25,224 bases of DNA from Triparma columacea (taxonomy: Eukaryota > Sar > Bolidophyceae > Parmales > Triparmaceae): the NCBI GenBank assembly GCA_030267965.1, contig BRYA01000063.1:8728-33951 (forward strand). The letters are read 5' to 3'. The position numbers and the translations under genes were made by a program. Position 1 is the first letter of the stretch; each line of letters begins with the position of its first letter. A model generated the notes under the pieces. It did not search any database, was not told where the DNA came from, and was given only the letters and a program-made list of their open reading frames with translations. This document shows positions 42 through 16,484 of the stretch, piece by piece.

Positions 42-3000
42 GGTCTGGAAGGGGTTTGGAGCATGCTCAAGTGCATGGGCGAAAGAGGTAGGAAAGAGTT
101 CAAGGTGGGCTTTGTCATCAGGAGGGTTGTCGTCCAGACCGTGCTCAGCAACCTCACAGCCGGGATGGAGGACTCCGGCGTTTTCCACCAGTGCCTCAAG
201 GTAATCACCGAGCTCTACAGGGGCTACAGGAAGCACTGCAAGATGGAGATAGCCGTCCTTTGCGAGCACTACATGCTCAGGATCCTGAGGCTCGGCCCGC
301 AGGTGAGGGACGGGAGCCTCAAAAACCAGCAGCTGGCGGCCCTGGAGTTCATCGTGAGGTGGTTTGACACGCCCCACAACGTTTGCGAGCTCTACCTCAA
401 CTACGACCTCGACCAGAGGGCTGGGGTGGAGAGGTGGAGGGTCTGCGAGCAAGTGTGCGCCGCGCTCTGTACCCTGGCCGAGCAGTGCAGCGAGGTAATC
501 CTCGGTCAGAACTCCCAGCGCGCCGCCGTGCAAAGGTACGGGAACCCAACGCCGGAGACGTTCGACAAGCTCAAGAACTTGGAGCTCGCCGCCAGGACGC
601 TGCAGGAGCTGGCCCTGGGGGCGGTTCAGCACGTGGTCAGGTGCCTGATGGACGCGAGCGGGCACGTCTTCATGATGCAGAACGACGCGGGGCTTAGGCA
701 AAAGAGTATAAGCCTGAGCGGAGGCTGGGAGGCGAGCGGGGCGAAGAAAAGGAAAAAGTCAACCAAGGCTAAGAGGACAACGGTGGCGGAGGATGCTGAC
801 AGAATCGGGAAAGTTGACGAGGTGGAGGTAACTGCAAAGGGTAGGCTCGCCGTGGTTACGAAGGAAAGCCTTGATGCCTCCGAGACAGGTCCGCTTTCCA
901 CCTCCTCAAACGGCACAACACGCAGGCTCAGCCTACACGGACGCACGCTTAGTGTCGCGTTCAGGCAGGAGGAAGGCAAGAAAACGGAGGAGACTCTCAA
1001 GAAGGCATTCGAGATCATATCTGAGAAGGGCCTCAAGAAGGTGAGTTAGGGCGGGGAATCAATGTTTGCAGAAACAATGTTGTATTATCATCTATCTAAC
1101 CCTTGGTCGTCTGTTCACTCCTCTCCCGCCCATCGCACGCTTGCAGGGGCTCAATTACCTCATAGCCGTAAATTTCCTCGCTCCGAGCCCGAGGGACGTC
1201 AGCAACTTCCTCAGGGTGCACCAGGCGCGCCTCGACAGCACTCTGCTGGGGGACTACTTGGGGGAGGTGAGGCGTAGCGAGAGGGAAACGACCGGCCAAA
1301 AAAGAGTTTATGTGCACACTGCTGTACAGATCGTATCTTACCCCTTAATCGCCGCTATCATACTAATCCAATAACGCAACGCTCATAACACAACGCTCAT
1401 CGCAGGGAGGGACTAGCGACGTAGAGTACTGGAACTTGATTCGATACCATTATATCAGGGCAATTTCCTTCGAGGGGATGAACGTCGAGCAGGGCCTTAG
1501 GCATTTCCTGACCAACGCGGGCTTTCGGCTTCCTGGAGAGGCTCAGAAGATCGATCGCCTCATCACCGTCTTTGCTCAGTGCTTTTGGGAGGACAACGCA
1601 GGGACCGCTTCCTGCCCTTTCTCGCACCAAGACACGGTCTTCATCCTCTCTTTCTCTGTGATCATGCTCAACACCGATCTCCACAAGGCCAACGCAAATT
1701 TGGCGAAAAAGAAGGTGAAGAAGATGACGAAGCAGGAGTTCATGAACAACCTCAGGGGGGTGGACAATTCGAGCGATCTTAGCAAGGACTACCTTTCAAA
1801 GATTTACGACTCAATTGCGTCGCAGGTCATTGAGATGGAGTTCGATCCCAAGTCCAGACAGGACGAACAGGGAACCGAGGGCGGGGGAGATTCGTCAAGG
1901 GTCAGCTACAAGGGTCTCAGCAAGGGGGTCAAGTCTGCCGGCGAACTCCTTCGTGGAATGGCTCTCTTTGACCACCACTACTCCCTTGTCGGGATTGATT
2001 GCATGATCTCGAATGAGCTCATCTCTAGCACCGTCGAAGCTTGCTTCCATCACTTCCACGGCATCATCGCAGCTATTTTGGACGCTAGTGAATTCGACCT
2101 CCAGAGCGTCCTTGCGACGCTCGATATATTGAAGAACAGTCTCTGCACGAGCGTCTTCCTGGACATGAAGATTGAGAGGCAGGCGTTCGCGACACAGCTG
2201 GCCAGGGTGAAGTACATTAAGGACGAGCAGGAGGGCGGACAGACGGATGGGATGGACGCGGGGTTCTACATTGTTAGCGGAGAGCACAAGAAGGAGGAAT
2301 GGTTCGTTGAGATGGAGAGGGCATGCGAGACCGGGGAGGGGATAGAGACTACCATCGGCAACATTCATCTTCTGATTGTAGATTTAAGGGCGAGTATGCA
2401 CGATAGCAGGAAGAGGAAGGAGCTCAAGACAATTTGTAGTAGGATTCAGGGGGGGGACGAGCTTTTGGACGACGCAAATAGAGAATTCATCCTCGAGGGC
2501 GACCTTTTGAAGCGTTGTCGGAGCGGCAAGAAAGTCAAGTACAGGTTCTTCCTATTCTCGGACCGCCTCGTTTATACTCACCTCTCCATCAAGGGGTACT
2601 ATAAGATCCACCAGCAGCTTATCTTGAGTTTAATGCGAGTCGTAGACGAGAAGAAGAGCACGTTCCAGATCATGCATCCGCGGAAGAGCTTCCTCGTCAT
2701 CTGCCCGAGCGTTGAGAAAAAGCGTGCCTGGATGGAGGCGATTTTGACCGAGATTGATAAACTCGAAGAGAAGAAGAACAGGGCTGAGGAAATCAGGCAT
2801 GCGTACAGCGATGTATCGGGCCTCGTTGACATGTCGGCGGAAGGTGCTTCGTCCAACAGGGGCAGCGAAGGAGGAGTGGAGTGGACTGATCTTAGGAATG
2901 GTGTCGTCGTCGATATTAACGGACTGGGTAGCGTCGGGGGGGATGGAAATACATCGGGGGGGAGGGGGTCGGTCAAATCAGCCACAGATGTTAACAATAG

Positions 3001-3349
3001 AGACAGCGGCGTGGTTTCGTCGGGAGGAGGGGAAGATGTCAAGGTTTTGAATGAGAGATACTACAAGGCGTTGCATTATTCGACCGATCTCTTGTCGGAT
3101 AAGAACGCGGGGGAGGACGTTAAGTTGAGTCTATACGGGCTCTTCAAGCAGGCGAAGCAGGGCGACGCGAGCGTAGGAGCTGGGGAGAGGGGGGGGGTGC
3201 TGGGGGAGGTCGAGCAGCTAAAGCTGGACTCTTGGAAGTCCTGCGGAGGCATGAGTAAGTTGGAGGCCAAGAAGAGGTACATCGAACTTTTGGGGGAAGT
3301 CAGTCCGAACTGGGAGGAAGGAGTGGATGTAAAAGGGGGGAATTCCTAA
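42..3349 (+). CDS. Arf guanine-nucleotide exchange factor, HUS-Sec7-PH (5' partial)
   Basis: Exons are 42-1040, 1147-1266 and 1406-3349, all phase 0. The window opens in a pyrimidine-rich acceptor ending CAG at 41, so upstream exons are missing; 1020 residues are visible. Residues about 1-200 match the HUS region of large BIG/GBF-type Arf GEFs, including a degenerate NYDLD in place of the usual NYDCD. The Sec7 domain spans about 323-518, with the FRLPGEAQKIDR loop carrying the catalytic glutamic finger and the MLNTDLH motif. Sec7 domains load GTP on Arf GTPases at Golgi or endosomal membranes. A PH domain follows at about 733-828 (EGDLLKRCRSGKKVKYRFFL begins it), and then a Gly/Ser-rich tail. 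A C-terminal PH domain is typical of cytohesins, whereas HUS is typical of BIG/GBF1, so the combination is odd. The gene converges on the next one with 72 bp between stop codons. Confidence 0.93.
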
Positions 3350-3421: not shown

Positions 3422-5796
3422 TTAGTTCAATTCCTTCGCCAAATTAGTCAGCTTCCCCACGAAGGCTTCCATGTCACGCATCTGCTCGTAGTTGTCCAAG
3501 TATCCCACGATCTCCTCGTCGCCCGCGTTAAACCGCGAGAGGAGCGCAGACCCTTGCACGGCCGTGATGATGTTCTGTTTGGAGAGTTCACTGATGAGCA
3601 TGGTGAAAATATAACGCCTCTCCATGTCAGTGAACTTGGAAGGGTCGGCTTCGGCCCCCTCTGTCTCCGCGGTAGCGGCGGTGGTTGCGGTAGATGCCGT
3701 GGTGGTGGTTGGGGCAGCTTCGTTCTCTCCGTTGCTCTCCTTTACATCGACCTCCTCGATGGCCCTGCGAATAATCTTCCACAGGGTATCCTTTAAATCA
3801 GATCCATTCTCAGTGATCCTGAACGCCTCGAGAGCTGCCCGGAGAGCGGGGTCGTTCTTGGCGATGGAGAGCCTGAGCGCAGCCGTCTCGATGTCGTTGA
3901 GGTTCATAGACTCCACGTAGCCAAAGAAGACATCGTAAGCAGAGCTCTCGGGGTCAACGTTTGGCTTCTCCTCCTCCTGCGTCTCTTGCTCCTCCTTCTC
4001 CTTGTCCATAGTGTTGGCGAGGAAGTCCCCGGCTGTCTGTGCAATCTGCTTCAAGGTCATGGCCAACTCGACGACGTCCTTGCTGTTCTCGTACAGCTGG
4101 AAGGTCATATCGATGTGCTTGTTTTCCTTCTCTACCAAGAGCTCCAATATGATGCACTCGTCTTCGGTGAGCACCCCTGAGGTTTGCATCATCTTGAAGA
4201 CCTCGAGCCTGTCAGACATTGAAAATGTCGCGCTCGAAGCCTCTCCCTCCTCACCCTCCTCCTCGTGCCCTGGTCCAGCCCCGATGAATCCGTCGTCGTC
4301 TCCCGCGTCGAACGACTCTGAAAATGTCTTAAGCTCAATGCCGTCCTCCTCCTTCTCCTGGTCGACCCTCGCTGCCCCTCCCTCGTCGTCCATCTCCGTG
4401 TCAGCGGCGTCGGTAGGTTGAACCTGGACGACCCCGTTGTCGGTCATGCTGAAGCTTGCGTGGCGTGGGTGGTATGGTCCGTGGCTTAGCTCCCTCTTGC
4501 ATATCCTCATGCAGGTGTCAACGAGGTCGTCGAGGGCGGCTTCCTTCTGGTTGTCGTCACCGTCGTTACCGTCGTTCTCGATGGCCGTTAGCATGTCCCT
4601 GTAGACGTCGAAGGCGGCGAGGCATCGGGGGTCGCTGGCCTCGGCGAGGGAGAGGAGGACGGCGCGTTCGGCTACCGATGCAAGGCCGGCATCGTGGAGC
4701 ATGACAATCAGGTGGGTAAGAGATGACGGGTGAGTGAGCATTTCTAGGGTGGGCCTTGAGTCGTCGTCGTCGTCATCGTCGTCGTCGGAGGAATAGTCGT
4801 CACCTCCGCCGACAGCAGCCTCTGAATTCAAGTCCCCGATTCCGGTGAGGCTGAGTGACCTTCTCCTCTCGACGGAGGTCATGGGCTGCACCCTCTCGTT
4901 GTCCTCCTCGCTGCTATCATCGTCGTCACCGTGGTCGTCGTTGCTCTCCTCGTTATCCTCTTCCATCATCTTGGTTCCCTCCCTCGCTAGGAGTACCATA
5001 GATTCGATCAAGTTAACAAGATTCTTGTCCTTATGATATGCCTCAAGTACCGCGTACAGTACCGGGCTGCGCTGTTCCGCCAGCATTGTGAGGAACGCGA
5101 CGCCCTGTTCGTCTATCATGTCCGTCCTGGTTCTGATCATGTCGATGATCTGTCCTACGACCGTGTGCATCCCGGAGCTCAGCTCCTTCTCGTGCTGCTC
5201 CTCTGCGGTCATGGCCTCCTCGACGACGGGGGCCCTAGAGTTTAGCTCCTGGTTAGCGAGCTCGGCCAGGGAGCCCAGGAGGTTCTCGAGGTCGAGGTTA
5301 GCGTCGAAGGCCTGCGCGAGGAGGGCGAGTAGGATGGGGGCCTTGGTCTTGGCGAGTTCAAGGAGGACCTTGGCGCCCTCGAGGGCGATGTCGCCCCTGG
5401 TCAACATGACCTCGATGCACTGAGTGAGAACCTTGATAAGCTGCTCGTCGACAGCCGCCTGTTCCGCCTCCGTCTCGGTTGGCTCTTGTACGTCCATCGG
5501 TGGCGCCGACGGTTGTGCGTCCAGCTGCAGCTGTTCCTCAGCGATTGTCCTTAGTTCCGTCAGGAGTTTATCAAGGTCAGCCGAGGTGTTGAAGTCCTCG
5601 AGGAGGACCATGAGGGATGGCATGTTGTCCTTGGCGTACTTGAGCAGGGCGACGGCGCCAGCCTGGGTTACCATGGACCGCGCCATCAGCAGCTGGAGGC
5701 ACTGTTTGAACACAGCTCCGAACCTGTCCTTGAGCTCATCGCTGAGATCCTCGGTCTTAACTTCTTGCTGCTGTTGCTCTTGGGGGGGTTGAGGGG

Positions 5797-5831
<35 letters not shown>

Positions 5832-7777
5832 TGCTGCTGTTCCGCGTCCTCGGTTTCCGGTGTGACCAGGTGCACGATCATTTGTAGGAATGCCTTGGCG
5901 TCCTTGTTTACCGTGAAGGCCTTGTAGATGGTCTCGAGGACCTGGTTGCCGTTGGCCATGGCGGTGAGAAGGGCGGTGGCGGCGTCCTTGGTGATGCGAC
6001 CGTGCTTCAGGAGCTTGATTATGGCGTCGTGGAAACCGGTCGGGATGGTGAGGCCGGCCTGAGGTGGGGGGGGGGGGAAAGAGAGAGAGAGAGAGTTGGG
6101 GGGGGAAGAGTTAGTTTCTTCCATTGGCGTCCTGCCTTTCATTCAAACCTCACCTGCCCACTATCATCGTCCTCTTCCTCCTCATCCTCGCTGTCCTCCT
6201 CTTCCTCGCTTTCCTCTTCATCTTCTTCCTCCTCCTCCTCTTCCTCCTCATCCTCGCTTTCCTCTTCCTCTTCCTCCTCCTCATCCTCCCACTCTTGTGC
6301 CCTCCTAATCTGCTCCCTCCTAACAACAACAAACCTTAGAAGCGTGTCCATAAAGTCGTCCTCATCTTCATCCTCGATCCACTTCTGTATAGCCCCCACA
6401 ACGAACTCCTCCTCCCTCGCCCCTAGCTCAATCAGGAACTCCTTGGCCTCAGGGGATATCATACCCTGGGATATGAGCTTGTTAGCCGCGTACGTTACCG
6501 CCGCTACGACGTACGCGGATCTCGGCATGTCCTTGTATTCCTCCGTATCCTCCTCCTCTTCCGTCCCCTCGATGGGTACAGGTTCCACAGGTTCAAGTAG
6601 GTCCGCGACGTGCTTGAGGTTGTCCAGCAGCTCGTTAACCACGTCCTCCGCCGCGTACGCACCGTCGTACGCCGCTACTACCATGTCGTTCTGCTGTAGG
6701 ATTGCGTCGACGAGAGCGATGTACTGACGGGTCTGGATGTCGGACTCCTCCATTAGGACCTCTGCGATGTCCAGCAGCTCCTCCTGGGCCTTGTGGACGT
6801 CAGAACCCTCGGGGCCGCGGGAGAGGTTCGAGGCAATGGATACGAGTGAGGCCTGGAAGTAGTTCGCGTCCTGCGTCCACTCCGCGTACTTGTAAGCCGA
6901 CAGAACAACTGGGTCGGACTGCCCGATTAGGTTGATCAACACCTGGGCGTCGAGGGGTGAGAGGTACTCCCCCCCGCATAGCTTGCTCACGAATGCGACG
7001 AGCACCCTCTTCAGGTCCCTCTCCTCCGCCTCGCTCCCGACGCTTGCTGCCACTGCCGTGCTGCTGCTAACGCTGGCGTCGTAGGGGGGAGGAGGGGGGG
7101 GGGCGGGGGAATGCTGGTTGGCGGAGGGGGCGGAGGGGGGAGGAGGGAGGGCGTAGGGGAAGTACTGGTCGGAGGACGCGTTGGAGACGCGGGGTTCCGA
7201 GGAGGCGATGGAGGAGCTTTGGGAGAGGAGGAGCTCGTACTCGTGGCCTGCGAGAAAGTGGAAGTGGAGTGGTTGGAGTGGTTCAAGTTAGTGTATGTGT
7301 ATGTGATGTTTTGTTCATCTGTCGGCCGGTTCTGCCTTTTCTGTCATTTGCTTATCTCCTTTTCTCTCTGCGTTCATACATTCCTCTCCATCCGTTCCTC
7401 ACCTTCCCCCACAAGTGTCTCCGGTGCCTGCGACGCAAGTGACAGTGGTATTACCGCTCTTGAGGCTGAGTCTACGATGCCTATGATGGTGGAGGGGTCG
7501 GCGTTGAAGGCAGCTCCAAGAACGGAAGCCAACTCGGAGGATGGGAGACCGGTGAAGAGGGCGACGAAGTGAGAGGATGAACCATGCTTGACCTGGGGGT
7601 GGTGAAGGGGGAATGGGGAGGGTGTTGGAGGGGGCAGATGGGGGGGGGCAGATGGGGGGAGATGTGCTCCAATAAAGGTTCGTAGGTAGGTCCCTGATGA
7701 AGTCATTTATCCATAAGGCCAACCTCCCTTACCTTAACAAATCTACACGAGGCCTTAATAGATGATGGGGATGCCAT
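3422..7777 (-). CDS. Large acidic helical-repeat protein with polyQ tract, function unknown
   Basis: Exons 7777-7733, 7592-7403, 7247-6154 and 6058-3422 join in phase (0, 1, 0) to give 1321 residues. The start is the first ATG of the first exon, MASPSSIKASCRFVK, which runs directly into a GTAAGG donor. I do not recognise the family. From about residue 150 to the C-terminus the protein holds about ten degenerate units of roughly 60 residues. Each has two or three amphipathic helices, following hydrophobic-helix, G-x-[ILM], xxxAxxLLxLA, then a Tyr/Phe helix and D-L-xxx-L-xxx-IA. Acidic linkers separate the units. A nearly pure Glu/Asp tract is encoded at 6157-6300, and 14 glutamines at 5798-5839. 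There is no signal peptide or membrane segment. An alpha-solenoid scaffold in the nucleus or cytosol is inference only. Exon boundaries rest on GT-AG and phase agreement; the two short 5' exons are less certain than the rest. Confidence 0.78.
5798..5839 (-). repeat. CAG/CAA trinucleotide run encoding polyglutamine
   Basis: Fourteen consecutive Gln codons in the acidic repeat protein, nine of them an uninterrupted CAG run. A second Gln/Pro-rich patch follows. It sits in the linker between two helical repeat units, so length changes would probably be tolerated. Confidence 0.95.
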
Positions 7778-8721: not shown

Positions 8722-10286
8722 ATGTCCGTAATGTTTCCCCCACCCCGTAGCGGTAAGCCCGTCCCCGGTGGTGACGGTACCCACCTGACCATCCACAAGC
8801 CTGATTCCACAGACTTCCCAGTAGATGACGGTATGAAGACACCAACACCAAGGTCTAGGGCATTCAGCTTAGGGAACATTAGCGTGAGCGACCTGGAGGA
8901 GTTGTTCCCGGAGAGCCCGGATGGGAAGAACAGCTTTAGGAGGACTAGGGTGTTCTCAATAGATGTTGATCCTGATTTGGAAATCGATGAGGTGAGCAGA
9001 GGGATGGAAGGATGGAAGGGTGGAGGGGTGGAGGGGTGGCAGAGCTGAGATACATATGAGCGCAGCGACGATGACATTGGCAATGAGCAACACGCACGCA
9101 ATCAGGGAGCACAGTCAAGCAATCCCCCGCACCCTATCCCATGACCAACCCCTCTCCCCCCCACCACCCACCCCTCCCCGCGCCCGCTCAGCTCGATATG
9201 AGCGACCAGAACCTGCTCGCCGGGGGGACCTTCGAGGTTGACTTCAAGGTGAATCGCGACAGAGGCATGTCCTTTGAGTTCTTTGCCTTCCAATCAGACG
9301 AGGCCGGAGAGATTGGAGCCATATCGTCCATCACCGCAGGCCCCAGGATCGAGCTGCCCACCCAGAACACCGTGACGTTCTCGTCCCAAATTCCTCCCTC
9401 CAGCGGCATCCCTAGGACACCGAATCGGCCCAGGGGGGACTCTATAATCTTCGATCCTAGGTCCTTTGAAGATGGGGGAATCCACGAGACTGCAGCGCTC
9501 GGGGTTGAGGTGGAGACCCCTTTGAAGGAGCGGATCGAGAGGAGGGTGCTCATGGAGGACAGCGACGAGGGGGAGACTGAGGACGAGTACATGGCTCGGC
9601 TAGCGCTTGACGCCAGGAGGCACTCCTCCTCGTCCTCACAGATGATAGCAGACTCTAAGATCTCAGTAAGCAACGTCATAGATGGAGACCAACTCAGCAG
9701 GAGGGAGAAGATGAAGCTCCAGTCCATCATCAACAAGGCAAAGTCGGCAATCGCAAGCAAGGTCAAGCCCAAGAGGAGGAAGTCGACGAGTCCCAAGCCC
9801 ACCCCAAAGTCCATCCCCAAGAAAGTAGTCCCTGCAACACCCCCCAAGAAGAAGAAGATCCTAGTCGAGAAGCTCGTCCCCCCCGCAGTCCTCACCGAGC
9901 TCGCCCCAGACCTCTACATCTCCTCCCACGCCGGTGACAAGGTCCTCGTGAACTCTGCCGTAGTACTCCTAACAGCCGCACTCAACAACAACCTATTCAC
10001 AGGAGTATACGACACCTCACCATTCGCAGCTCTACACACCCTAAACAAGGAGGGGAGGATTGGTATATACACACCGGCGCAGAGGAAGGCTAGGGTTAAG
10101 AAATTTCACTCAAAGAGAAAAATGAGAATATGGAGGAAGAGAATCAAGTACGACTGCAGGAAAAAATTAGCGGACTCGAGACCGAGGATTAAGGGGAGAT
10201 TCGTTAAAAGACAGGATGTTGTACAGGGGAATGAGGGGGCGGTTGAAATCGGAGTTGAGTTATTTCCAGAGAAGGGACATGATTGA
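8722..10286 (+). CDS. CCT-domain transcriptional regulator
   Basis: Exons 8722-8991 and 9192-10286 (phase 0, GTGAGC donor, CAG acceptor) give 454 residues. The C-terminal CCT domain (CONSTANS, CO-like, TOC1) spans about residues 385-428. It holds the basic run RKARVKKFHSKRKMRIWRKR and the diagnostic RPRIKGRFVKR end. CCT domains act in nuclear targeting and in DNA or NF-Y binding in plant light and clock regulators. No B-box or response-regulator domain is visible. Exon 1 carries two Arg-x-Arg-x-Phe-Ser motifs (RSRAFSL and RTRVFSI), and exon 2 opens with a conserved-looking RDRGMSFEFFAFQ block. A Lys/Pro/Ser-rich basic region follows (about residues 275-325). A nuclear location is expected. 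The target genes cannot be read from the sequence. Confidence 0.88.
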
Positions 10287-10828: not shown

Positions 10829-11831
10829 TCAAGCGCTCGATGCGATCCCCACAACCCCTCCCGCGATCCTAGGTCCCGAGTTCCCAGTCGTCATGGACAA
10901 CTCATGTGCCCCGCGTCCCAGGTCGTCCTCACCAGCCTTGACGACTATGGAGCGACCGAGGACGGAGTGGGGGCCGATTAGCTTCACGATGCGGTCCTCT
11001 ATTTGGACCTTGCAATCACCGGAATCGGAAACCTAGAGTGGAAGGNNNNNNNNNNNNNNNNNNNNNNNNNNNNNNNNNNNNNNNNNNNNNNCAAGAGAGG
11101 AGAAGGGAAATAAGCTTGTAGGAGCCGAAACCAACTACTCCAAAGGCCAAATGGCTTGATTAGCAATTCGCTTCTCCTCGCTCGCTTCTTCTCTCCCCTC
11201 ACCTCTACATTCCCAAGGTCGCCGACCATACGCTCCTCGTCCTCAGGGGCCCCGTGGTTCTTCCCGAAGGGGTTGAAGATACCAGCGCACGACGTCAGAC
11301 CCATGGAGAGGTCGCCGAAGACGTGGATGTGGAAACCGTGCTTACCGGGGGTGAGACCCTTGATCTAAGAGAGGGGGGAAGAGGGGGAGAGGAGGGAAGT
11401 GGAGAGGGGGGAGAAGAAGGAGGAGAGGGTTAGGGGAGACTAGAGATAGGGAAGTTCAAACGTTGGATATGAGCGCAATTTCGCAAAGAATGTGATCGTT
11501 TCAACCCTGCAAACACTACATAGGCTATTTATTGTCTAACGGAACGGAGTTGCGGGTCAGGTTCGCAAATTTCACACTCACCTCTCCTTCTATGATGGTG
11601 GGGGCGTCTTCCGTGGCCTGGGATAGGGTAAGGATCCCAGTTATGCCTTCGCCTGACGATTCAGGTGGAGAGGAGAGAATAATTTTAGATTTTAGTTGAG
11701 CGGAAGTCGTGAAGAGGGGCGGATGAGAAGGGGTGGGAGGGAGTTAGAGGGTTGCTTGGGTGGGGGAGAGGGGGGAAAGAAGGGAGGCTGGGGGGGGGCG
11801 CACCTGTCATTGAAACGGATGCTTTGGCCAT
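10829..11831 (-). CDS. Cu/Zn superoxide dismutase-like protein lacking key metal ligands
   Basis: Exons 11831-11804, 11652-11582, 11364-11203 and 11032-10829 join in phase (1, 0, 0) to exactly 154 residues, the normal length of cytosolic Cu/Zn SOD. There is no targeting peptide. Fold landmarks are intact: [39 protein letters not shown], and a [15 protein letters not shown] end. In human SOD1 numbering the copper ligands H46 and H48 and the zinc ligands H71 and D83 are kept. The bridging H63 is Ile (residue 62), H80 is Met (79) and H120 is Lys (119). Both disulfide positions are also changed (C57 to Leu, C146 to Gly), while active-site Arg143 is kept. Normal dismutase chemistry is therefore unlikely. 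Intact frame and splicing argue against an old pseudogene. The last intron (11202-11033) contains the assembly gap. Confidence 0.9.
11046..11091. other. Assembly gap (46 Ns)
   Basis: A run of 46 undetermined bases inside the last intron of the SOD-like gene. Coding exons on either side join in phase, so the gap probably does not hide coding sequence. Confidence 0.99.
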
Positions 11832-13221: not shown

Positions 13222-16200
13222 TCAAGGCCTCTGTTCCTTCTTGCGTCTGTTCCAGCTGCTGTCTTTGGAACCTCCGCCTCTGCTGGCAGTGGCATAGTTG
13301 ACAACAACCTGCAGGAGGTCGTGAAGGGTGCGTGCGTTAGTGTTTGTAGGCCAACCCAACATTGTCGTTGCGTGGATGCATATTCTCACCTTCCCGAATG
13401 CTTCCTCCTTGGTCTCGCCGTTGGGCAGCTTGATAAGTTTCTTGCACTCGTAAATGAGGTCCGTGAGGGTGTCGTATAAACGATGCCCCCCTTTTTTGAA
13501 GTCGAGGGTGAAGCCCTTCTCATTCACCGACATGGCGCAGTGATCTTGCCTGATCTTCACCTTGGTGTTGGACTTATACAGGTCGTTGAAGCTGATGGCC
13601 AGTGAACCCGGCTTGCTCTCACTAAGCCTGATCAGAAAGGTTCCAAAGTCCTTCCCCTTGAGCATCTTCTCCGCGTCGATCCTTCCAACGAATCCGTGGA
13701 GCAGCACCGGACTCTGGCACTGCCACTCGCTGCTGATCTTGATGAGCGTCGTTAGCGACGGCGAGAACCACTCGCAGAACGACTTAAAGTTATCAAATGT
13801 TATCAAGTCGTCCTTGACCTGAGACAAGCTCGTCATCCTTGACTTTATAAATCGCATCTCCTTGACGGTGAGCCTCCTGCAGGTTAACGCTGTCGCCTTG
13901 GTCCATCGATCTATGCAGTGCTGGAGTGCAGTCTGCGGCGAACAAAGTGGAGCTAGTGGTTAGTGGAGCTCGGAGGTGTCTACGACGTTACCACTTCCAT
14001 TTCTGTTCGTCCCATTCTCACCTCGCAAACTTCCCAGCTTACCACGACATTTCTAAGCTCGTCAAGATTCCTGACCTCTGGAGGGTTCTTGCTCCCGCCG
14101 TTCATTCTCGTGAAGAACCTTATACAAGTAACCCAAAGGCTCGCGCACCTCCTGTCCGAAATGTGTTTTCGGACCTCGGCCTCAATATCTTCGAACCTGT
14201 TTCTTTCCGACGGGGGTCGTTCCTTGGGCAGCTCGTCGAGCTCTCCCATCTTCTTGTTGTCGAGTTCGAGCGCCAAGTTCTTGATCTTTAGGGGGTTTCC
14301 CTCCGTGCGGAGGAGGGCTGGGCGCATCGCCAAGGAATGGAGCCACTGCAGGGGGGGGGGTGTTAGTGAAAACATTGGGTGCCTTGGGGGTTCCTTTTGT
14401 CTCGTTCTCTCACCTGCTCCCTCGTTATCTTGGCAAGTTCCATCCCCTCAACCGCGCTACTCTTCATCTCGTCCAGGTTGAGCGTCCTGCTCATGACGTG
14501 TATAAGCATGACGGCGCTGTTGAACTGGTCCAGAGGTTGCAGTGGCACGTTCTTCTCCACGACGTCCTTGACTGCCGCTATTGAGGTGTGGTGCCGACGG
14601 AGGAGAGGCAAACCCTTCTCCTCGCTGTTGGCAAGAGTGTTGGAGGCAGAGTCGAACTTATCGATTAGCGGCGCGAGCTTGACAGTGGAGGTCGCGAGGA
14701 TGCTAATCGAGGGGTAGCGGAGCAGCTCGTTGAGGAAGGATAGAGTAGGGGTGAAGAGGGGGGACTTGGGGTGAAAGAAGGTGTCGATGCCGTCAAGAAC
14801 CATGAGGGTCTTGTTCTCGTGAAGTTCTCCGCTGCTGTATCTATTGCTATCATAAAGGTTCCTTGCTGGCATGCTGGATGCTCTCCTTGCCTGACTCGGC
14901 ACTAGCCCCTCCGTCCTACCGTCTTTACCCTCCTCCAAGAATTCGGTGGTCGCCCAACCCTTTTCATCGAGCGTTCTTGTGAGCTCGTTGAAAAACTCGG
15001 ATGCCCTGAACCCGTCTCCCTCGTCTGCCCTGTGTTTAGCCTCCCCCTTTTCTGACCTCGTTAGCGACAGGCTCCCCTCAACGTCGCTCGCGAACTGCAG
15101 GCTGATGGCCTTGCAGAGGGCCTTGAGGCTGTAAAGTCCAGAGGTTGAACCGTCCATTCCCCTAGACCTGCACTTCCTCTCCGCAACCTCAAAGTAGTCC
15201 TTGAGGTCAGGGAAGCTAACGTAGTTCACGCGACCGAAGTGGCTAAGCCTCTCCGCGCTAGGGGGGCGGCGAGCGAAGCGAGGGCGACGAGCGAAGCGAG
15301 TTGCGTAAGGGGTTGGTGCGTTATTGTGGTGCGTTAGTTGGTTCGTGTCAGCATCCGTTTTTCCTCATCCTTCACCAGTCTCACCTGTATCTGACGGCTC
15401 TGATGACGAGGCTGCTCTTCCCCACTCCTGATGGCCCTGTGATAGTTGTTAGCCTTGCTCCGTTGGAGAGGTAACGGAGGACGTTGTTAACGTCGACTGC
15501 ACGGCCTATGTAAGAGGCCGCGTCCACGCCGAGGGGGAGGTTTATTAAGAGGGAACGGGGGGGGAGATGGGTGTTGAAGAAGGACACTTTGGAAGTCTTG
15601 GAAAAGAGGGAGGTGCGGGAGTGATCGCCGGGACCGAGAAGGACAAAGAGGTCCTCGTCCGACCTGTCGAGGTGATCGTTGGATACCATCAGAGAGTTCT
15701 TGGCAGTCTCAAAGCTCCCTTGTATGGTCTTCCCGCTGAATATCGCCTGGTAGAACTGCAGCTCGAACTCTATTACGCTCTCGTCCCTAACCGGGCTCGT
15801 CGTAGCCACGACGTGCGGGACCCCTGCGTTAACGAAAGCTTGGCCGGCTTGGACGGAGTGACAAGCTGACACGAACGCCAGCTGGGTTCGCTGGTAGGAT
15901 GGTGGGGGGGGGGGGGAGAGAGAAAGGGGGAGGGATGACAGGGAATGGGAGACTGAACCGGTGGAGGAAACGCTGTCGTCTGAGTCGTCATCGTTCTCGG
16001 CACCAGACTCAAACACCACCCTTAAAAGGTCTGGTTTTATGGGGGCGGCGACACCGTCGGGGCCTTCGAAAAGCAAGTCTCCAGTGTCCGTGCCATGGCC
16101 GGAATAGTGGATTATGGCGGAACCGTTGCCGACCGTGAGGAGAGTCTGGAAGGATGATACTGAGCAATTCAGGGGTCTTATGTTGAGGGAGTTGTATTTG

Positions 16201-16484
16201 TGGCTTGATTTTGTTGTATCCGTGGGTCCAGGTGAGGAAGTGCTGGGGGGGGGGGACTCTCGGTGGACTCTCTTGGCCGCCGTGAGTATTGTTTCGTATT
16301 CCTTTGATGTGTTCAGAACGGGAAGGGGTTGCTTGTTCTTGCTGGACTGCTGGAAGAGTGGTGATGATACTAAGAAGGTAAATCTGAGTGTGCTAGTGTT
16401 TTTGATGTTATTGACGTTATTGTTGATGTCATCGTTTGAAGGGTGTGATGAGGAGTCCTTTCTTGGGGTTGTGTGTGATTCCAT
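13222..16484 (-). CDS. CHAT protease-like / NB-ARC STAND NTPase / STAT-like SH2 fusion protein
   Basis: Exons 16484-15385, 15257-14414, 14345-14022 and 13932-13222 join in phase (2, 0, 0) to give 992 residues. Residues about 35-265 form a CHAT (caspase-HetF) domain, with IIHYSGHG (H126, H130), VSACHS (C208), GVPHVVATTSPVRDES and a final FYQAIFSGKT helix. A Ser/Asp/Pro-rich insert of about 40 residues separates the His and Cys blocks. An NB-ARC-type NTPase follows, with P-loop GPSGVGKSS (350-358), Walker B TLMVLDGID (517-525), a sensor strand ISILATST (551-558) and a GNPL motif (664-667). Residues about 800-925 hold a short linker with W-F spacing and an SH2 domain, FLIRLSES, with R858 as the phosphotyrosine-binding Arg. 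By family logic it is a nucleotide-gated sensor with a cysteine-protease effector and phosphotyrosine recognition. Its ligand and substrate are unknown. A possible 81-nt intron (13389-13309) would shorten the tail to 965 residues. Confidence 0.88.
13309..13389 (-). other. Possible retained or alternative 81-nt intron
   Basis: The stretch begins GTGAGA after AAG and ends CTCCTGCAG before GTTGTT, a good fit to this locus's splice signals. It is 81 nt, a multiple of three, and has no stop in frame. Both the spliced and the retained forms of the SH2-protein C-terminus are therefore translatable. Confidence 0.55.

Follow-up and report, generated by a model that had tools for sequence, protein, structure and literature searches.

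Does a single algal gene join a protease, a nucleotide-dependent switch and a phosphotyrosine reader, and what would such a protein do? CHAT proteases on STAND switches are parts of bacterial and fungal defence or cell-death systems, and STATs are phosphotyrosine-driven dimers that act on DNA. The locus lies in a 25,224-nucleotide stretch of Triparma columacea, an alga that seems to be kin to the diatoms (contig BRYA01000063.1, positions 8,728 to 33,951; hereafter the window), within contig C63 of the 37.85 Mb assembly of 789 contigs that was searched. A first-pass annotation, made from the letters alone, had described here a CHAT domain, an NB-ARC switch and an SH2 domain in an order for which it knew no described example. 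The reading that we favour, and to which we give about an even chance, is that of an NLR-like, phosphotyrosine-gated CHAT protease in which a STAT-type clamp stands in place of the repeats of its relatives.

The gene was found on the minus strand, which the annotation had not named, and an in-frame stop two codons upstream of the ATG at 16484 closes the frame. The predicted introns 1-4 are 127, 68, 89 and 81 bases long (365 in total), and each starts with GTGAGA, contains CTAAC and ends with AG. Although the annotated motifs are indeed in phase, in one frame after splicing, the proposed four exons, three introns and 992 residues had to be replaced by five exons, four introns and 965 residues: intron 4 is in frame and free of stops, so that reading through it had still given an open model. 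With this intron removed at the predicted splice sites, the protein ends in FGKVVVNYATAS, colinear with the C-termini of the relatives P0001 (FRRVIANYATAS) and P0002 (FSKVKSNYANYAS). By the exon junctions of the spliced model, three of the named motifs fall in exon 1 and the others in exons 2, 3 and 4. When the same genome was searched with P0001, this gene was matched in four overlapping pieces, and two weaker matches elsewhere extended over no more than CHAT, or CHAT plus the P-loop region. Intron 1 also carries two CGAGCGAAGCGAG units, 18 bases apart, at window positions 15270-15300. With up to two mismatches allowed, 54 copies of this two-unit pattern were counted across the genome, 29 of them forward and 25 reverse and often in tandem, and its reversed control gave no occurrence; the unit is a dispersed short repeat.

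Table 1. Window coordinates of the gene, its predicted exons and the features of the encoded protein.
Feature	Position	Strand	Description
Exon 1	15385..16484	-	Start codon, CHAT domain, Walker A
CHAT domain	15582..16400	-	Residues 29-301 by structural match with 8tl0; Pfam 111-267
Predicted catalytic His130 codon	16095..16097	-	H in every row but 4 gapped ones (90 of 94)
Predicted catalytic Cys208 codon	15861..15863	-	C in every row but 2 gapped ones (92 of 94)
Walker A GPSGVGKSS	15411..15437	-	Residues 350-358; K356 invariant in 7 rows of alignment A1
Exon 2	14414..15257	-	Walker B and the larger part of the STAND NTPase
Walker B VLDGID	14783..14800	-	Residues 520-525; D522 invariant in A1
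Exon 3	14022..14345	-	GNPL motif and start of the linker
GNPL motif	14289..14300	-	Residues 664-667
Exon 4	13390..13932	-	Residues 757-937, both ends phase 0; remaining linker and whole SH2
SH2 domain	13438..13704	-	Residues 833-921; Pfam 835-916, PDB match to residue 921
SH2 Arg858 codon	13627..13629	-	R in all 9 rows of alignment A4
Intron 4	13309..13389	-	81 bases, a multiple of three, free of stops; GTGAGA...CTAAC...CTGCAG
Exon 5	13222..13308	-	C-terminal tail and stop; tail colinear with P0001 and P0002
Stop codon	13224-13222	-	

The N-terminal part of the spliced protein matched the Pfam CHAT family (PF12770) with an E-value of 9.1e-8 (32.3 bits, cut-off 24), and the raw genome search likewise gave a CHAT score above the cut-off. 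HYSGHG starts at residue 126 and SACHS at residue 206, and the histidine and cysteine predicted to be catalytic are conserved among the relatives (Table 1). Structure prediction, which the annotation had named as a test of its CHAT assignment, was run on the window's own exon 1 and gave a CHAT/caspase fold of the caspase/separase clan, which does not refute the claim. These results point to a caspase-like cysteine protease domain with a predicted catalytic pair. In the bacterial SAVED-CHAT protease (PDB 8tl0) the sensor is a SAVED domain, whereas the query has STAND and SH2 instead.

Walker A, Walker B and GxP motifs, by which STAND NTPases are recognised, are all present in the query, and its NTPase region has the fold of the CDC6/Orc-STAND group. 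A P-loop switch of the STAND type is therefore retained from the earlier description, but the NB-ARC label is not: NB-ARC (PF00931) scored 12.1 bits against a cut-off of 23.5, although the relative P0002 passed with 25.2. The nSTAND1 profile gave 26.1 bits for the query against a cut-off of 27.1. In the exon 1 profile the Walker A K356 column, which lies near the profile edge, holds K in 42, R in 10 and a gap in 42 of the 94 rows described below. Among the 10 R rows, one of which is the LRR-CHAT-STAND protein of this genome, eight have a GxxxxGR motif, suggesting that the R is mostly real in that branch. A CHAT-STAND core of the same superfamily as the query was also found at locus L002 of this genome (G000:C228:63645-64151); its 919-residue frame differs in having an LRR-like part in front, no detected linker-SH2, and R for K in Walker A (GIPGIGRG), so that the NTPase of this protein is possibly inactive. 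Another CHAT-like match lies at C780:32254-32790.

On the spliced protein SH2 (PF00017) was detected with an E-value of 7.5e-9 (36 bits, cut-off 21), and together with the value for CHAT this excludes a chance origin of the motifs. The SH2 domain of the annotation was thus confirmed, yet not as a generic one. When the query alone was compared with PDB, Dictyostelium STAT (6.7e-6) and SHP-2 (8.6e-6) were level, but STAT, with a linker followed by SH2, came out ahead both by family profile and by fold search, and the generic SH2 was rejected. On the strength of profile and predicted fold, we conclude that the SH2 belongs to a STAT-type linker-SH2 module. STAT proteins (Dictyostelium STAT 1uur/1uus, STAT5 and STAT6) resemble the query in a helical linker and SH2 spanning about 240 residues and in the SH2 arginine, and differ in that coiled-coil and DNA-binding parts stand where the query has CHAT and STAND. 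The linker alone, used as a profile, found nothing significant by sequence: short viral gp41 fragments came top (0.019), STAT5B followed at 0.065, and STAT6 and STATa (1.2-1.5) were interspersed with S100 proteins. Pfam STAT_linker was seen at 0.077 in just one of nine rows, and its match in P0043 (0.17) fell at 884-928, away from the stretch preceding the SH2 core at 1121.

A STAT-like linker-SH2 also suggests that the protein might signal mainly by SH2-phosphotyrosine pairing, with CHAT self-cleavage freeing the linker-SH2 part as the signal. Tyr942, which follows the SH2 and is common to the query, P0001 and P0002 (the three close sequences that reach this position), would fit such a role as a candidate for the C-terminal tyrosine through which STATs dimerise reciprocally. 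We nevertheless regard this reading as improbable, as no STAT DNA-binding or coiled-coil family occurs among the 12 families that Pfam gave for the query at E-values up to 1, and P0040 and P0006 have no tyrosine past the SH2 core region.

The favoured reading of a phosphotyrosine-gated protease depends on what the SH2 pocket binds. GTFLIRLSES starts at residue 853, and its Arg858 is found in every A4 row, an invariance that is not independent because the nine rows were picked partly by eye for the arginine motif. A basic residue occupies the position of R840 in eight of these rows, P0043 having D there. FLIRLSES is unchanged in the query, P0001, P0002 and P0003, and in P0005, P0036 and P0037 other residues stand in place of the SES that follows the arginine (RFRYK). 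Such variable pocket residues in the P0005 branch would be compatible with an SH2 that works without phosphotyrosine, as a phosphoserine/threonine reader or a structural part, in an alga lacking a classical tyrosine-kinase system; the SH2 of Spt6, for example, reads phosphoserine/threonine. Similarly, the genome was searched with exact codon patterns of the tyrosine-kinase signatures HRDLAARN and HRDLRAAN and gave no match, a search that variant or intron-split motifs would escape. The conserved arginine, the nearly constant basic residue and the intact FLIRLSES of the closer sequences, as well as phosphatase-type HCxxGxxRT motifs present in the genome, all argue against this alternative, which we consider quite unlikely. 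Two other SH2 matches were observed in the same genome, one at L008 (G000:C67:13604-13693), with the core SFLVRFSEAK and a preceding stretch that could form a second linker-SH2, and one at L007 (G000:C44:40819-40989).

Three protein searches, which returned 35, 74 and 3 sequences, yielded a family set of at least 92 different proteins; because only the best word-sharing candidates were scored (in two of the searches, the 7994 and 7992 with the most words in common), the family is not exhausted. An unfiltered linker-SH2 profile of seven sequences was applied to 94 CHAT-STAND rows (the query, these 92 proteins and the LRR-CHAT-STAND protein of the same genome) and matched 12, the query and Triparma verrucosa among them. 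Sequences outside the profile were matched as well, namely P0003, P0006 (best domain 3e-17), P0088 (1.2e-12), P0043 (3.4e-8) and, marginally, P0050 (1.5e-4). Pfam SH2 exceeded its cut-off in the query, P0001, P0002, P0003, P0005, P0036, P0037, P0040 and P0088 but not in P0006, P0043 and P0050. The remaining 82 rows, fragments included, gave no linker-SH2 match up to E 1, and many of them list TPR, LRR or kinase domains in Pfam. The order CHAT, P-loop NTPase, linker-SH2 was found by Pfam or the family profile in P0001, P0002, P0005, P0006, P0036, P0037, P0040 and P0043, the SH2 of P0006 and P0043 being detected by the family profile only. CHAT fell slightly below the cut-off of 24 in P0002 (22.5) and P0088 (23.6), and P0003 lacks the N-terminus. 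The presence of three domains in one protein thus holds, for P0001 and P0002 as well, and the uniqueness of their order does not, since eight relatives share it. Homology, motifs and predicted fold together show the domains and their order, the predicted catalytic pair and the SH2 arginine, and an order kept in several divergent relatives.

Triparma verrucosa and T. laevis are the named close relatives. P0001 is 69% identical to the query over 89% and P0002 43% identical, and both have the same domain order in one protein. The 909 codons of P0001 occupy 2,727 bases on a longest contig of 3,039 bases; the room left is smaller than the 365 bases of introns in the query gene, and P0001 is therefore probably one uninterrupted frame. 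These relatives bear on the suspicion that neighbouring genes were fused by the gene model or the assembly, which might be raised because the model is predicted and its first version was wrong at intron 4. Since the same order recurs in P0001 and P0002 and again in more distant relatives, we rejected such an artefact as extremely improbable. By homology, the CHAT-STAND-linker-SH2 protein is not a one-off.

The CHAT exon has prokaryotic relatives as well, nine of 44 stretches being confirmed at 24-31% identity (four Chloroflexota-type loci, three cyanobacterial, one from Cloacimonetes and one from Thiothrix). Among 106 stretches from viral contigs scanned with A1, no relative was confirmed. Bacterial CHAT-STAND-TPR proteins, such as P0008 from an Anaerolineae bacterium, share CHAT and STAND NTPase with the query but carry TPR repeats (Pfam) where it has the STAT-type linker-SH2. 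The simplest picture suggested by these sequences is a CHAT-STAND core of bacterial type that carries a eukaryotic tail. As most of the 94 rows show, the core functions elsewhere without the linker-SH2, and SH2 domains often serve in recruitment; the protein could thus be a localised protease, its CHAT-STAND part responding to another trigger as in the bacterial kin and its linker-SH2 only bringing it to a phosphorylated partner or place without gating. We consider this unlikely, given that the linker-SH2 fills the C-terminal place of the repeats in several kin and that a STAT-type linker is present beyond the SH2 alone.

The number of fusions was examined by trees of the CHAT exon. In the first, of 89 rows (the short rows P0089, P0091, P0085, P0092 and P0003 were dropped), the SH2-bearing rows were not united and a long-branch warning was obtained. 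The second comprised 51 rows, 38 more having been dropped, of which 14 were labelled linker-SH2; P0004, P0038 and P0039, fragments that end before the SH2, were labelled by kinship. On this tree the 14 rows need 2 changes against a mean of 12.5 for shuffled labels, and 12 of them fall in one supported group (96/94). A single clade for all 14 had a p-AU of 0.49, and one-change trees made up 0% of 200 bootstrap trees. A single origin of the fusion was thus not rejected by these sequences, a result weakened by the long branches and by the naming of the group after the first tree and the profile result.

Precedents were found for parts of this architecture. In type III-E CRISPR, TPR-CHAT/Csx29 (7y85, 8eex) acts together with an RNA-guided partner and has TPR and, unlike the query, no SH2. 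Passages of the review PMC12881547 describe CHAT domains in fungal NLRs, the activation of a gasdermin by a CHAT protease with TPR, and a clustering of fungal NLR or TPR proteins bearing CHAT proteases with gasdermins. As in the query, CHAT is N-terminal on an NLR-like sensor in these systems; the sensors named in those passages are repeats and not SH2. A Pfam Gasdermin search of the Triparma genome gave no match, and control genomes were equally silent. Passages of PMC8195603 treat effector-STAND-sensor proteins, where a variety of binding domains is combined with caspases and STAND NTPases; nSTAND1 is named in that text, and SH2 is listed among the C-terminal domains of NCOA6-clade TRADD-N proteins. 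There, a caspase or other effector precedes the STAND NTPase and a binding domain follows it, as in the query; CHAT is absent from that text, SH2 occurs twice, and its passages contain no CHAT with SH2. We regard both groups as precedents for a possible defence or death role and not as evidence here. No literature joining a CHAT domain with an SH2 domain, or CHAT, STAND and SH2 in eukaryotes, was found within a coverage that most subscription journals lie outside, so that an earlier description is possible. By comparison of domains, the NLR-like CHAT protease appears to be the known part and the STAT-type module as its sensor the new one.

With a caspase-like protease, an ATP-binding switch and a phosphotyrosine-reading STAT half in one gene, tyrosine phosphorylation may directly control protein cutting. 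At rest, the nucleotide-bound STAND NTPase would keep the N-terminal CHAT protease shut or apart. The linker-SH2 at the C-terminus occupies the place of the bacterial relatives' TPR repeats and is therefore most likely the sensor or clamp. Its SH2 would bind a phosphotyrosine of a partner, or of a second copy of the protein itself as in STAT dimers, which would favour nucleotide exchange and oligomerisation; CHAT domains brought together in this way could then switch on cleavage of a substrate. While phosphotyrosine gating of proteolysis can reasonably be inferred, all activation steps and a stress, defence or cell-death role are put forward conditionally. The predicted full-length model of P0001 had a pTM of 0.37, at which the arrangement of its domains is not readable. 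A broader proposal, which we advance tentatively and with somewhat less than even chances, is that of an as yet undescribed protist family of 'STAT-proteases', in which STAND-CHAT cores pair through the STAT linker-SH2 half when it binds phosphotyrosine and phosphorylation is converted into proteolysis without transcription, as an NLR-like immune or death switch that arose by one fusion and was kept in divergent eukaryotic microbes. If true, tyrosine phosphorylation would lead directly to proteolysis in organisms other than animals, and a STAT linker-SH2 half working without the DNA-binding core would bear on the origins of STATs.

Several other frames were observed in the window. Positions 3425-7287 (minus strand) contain two long acidic frames rich in low complexity, of 906 and 382 residues, neither of which matched Pfam at 0.001. 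A frame at 10999-11364 (minus strand) resembles Cu/Zn superoxide dismutase by eye and is broken by 16 undetermined residues. CCT motifs are known from plant light and clock regulators, and a CCT-motif protein (3.6e-16) lies at 9087-10283 (plus strand). Finally, a 660-residue frame at 1367-3349 (plus strand) has Sec7 (2e-39), PH (6.6e-7) and acyl-CoA-binding ACBP (3.3e-15) domains and, by these matches, is an ARF exchange factor fused to an acyl-CoA binder.
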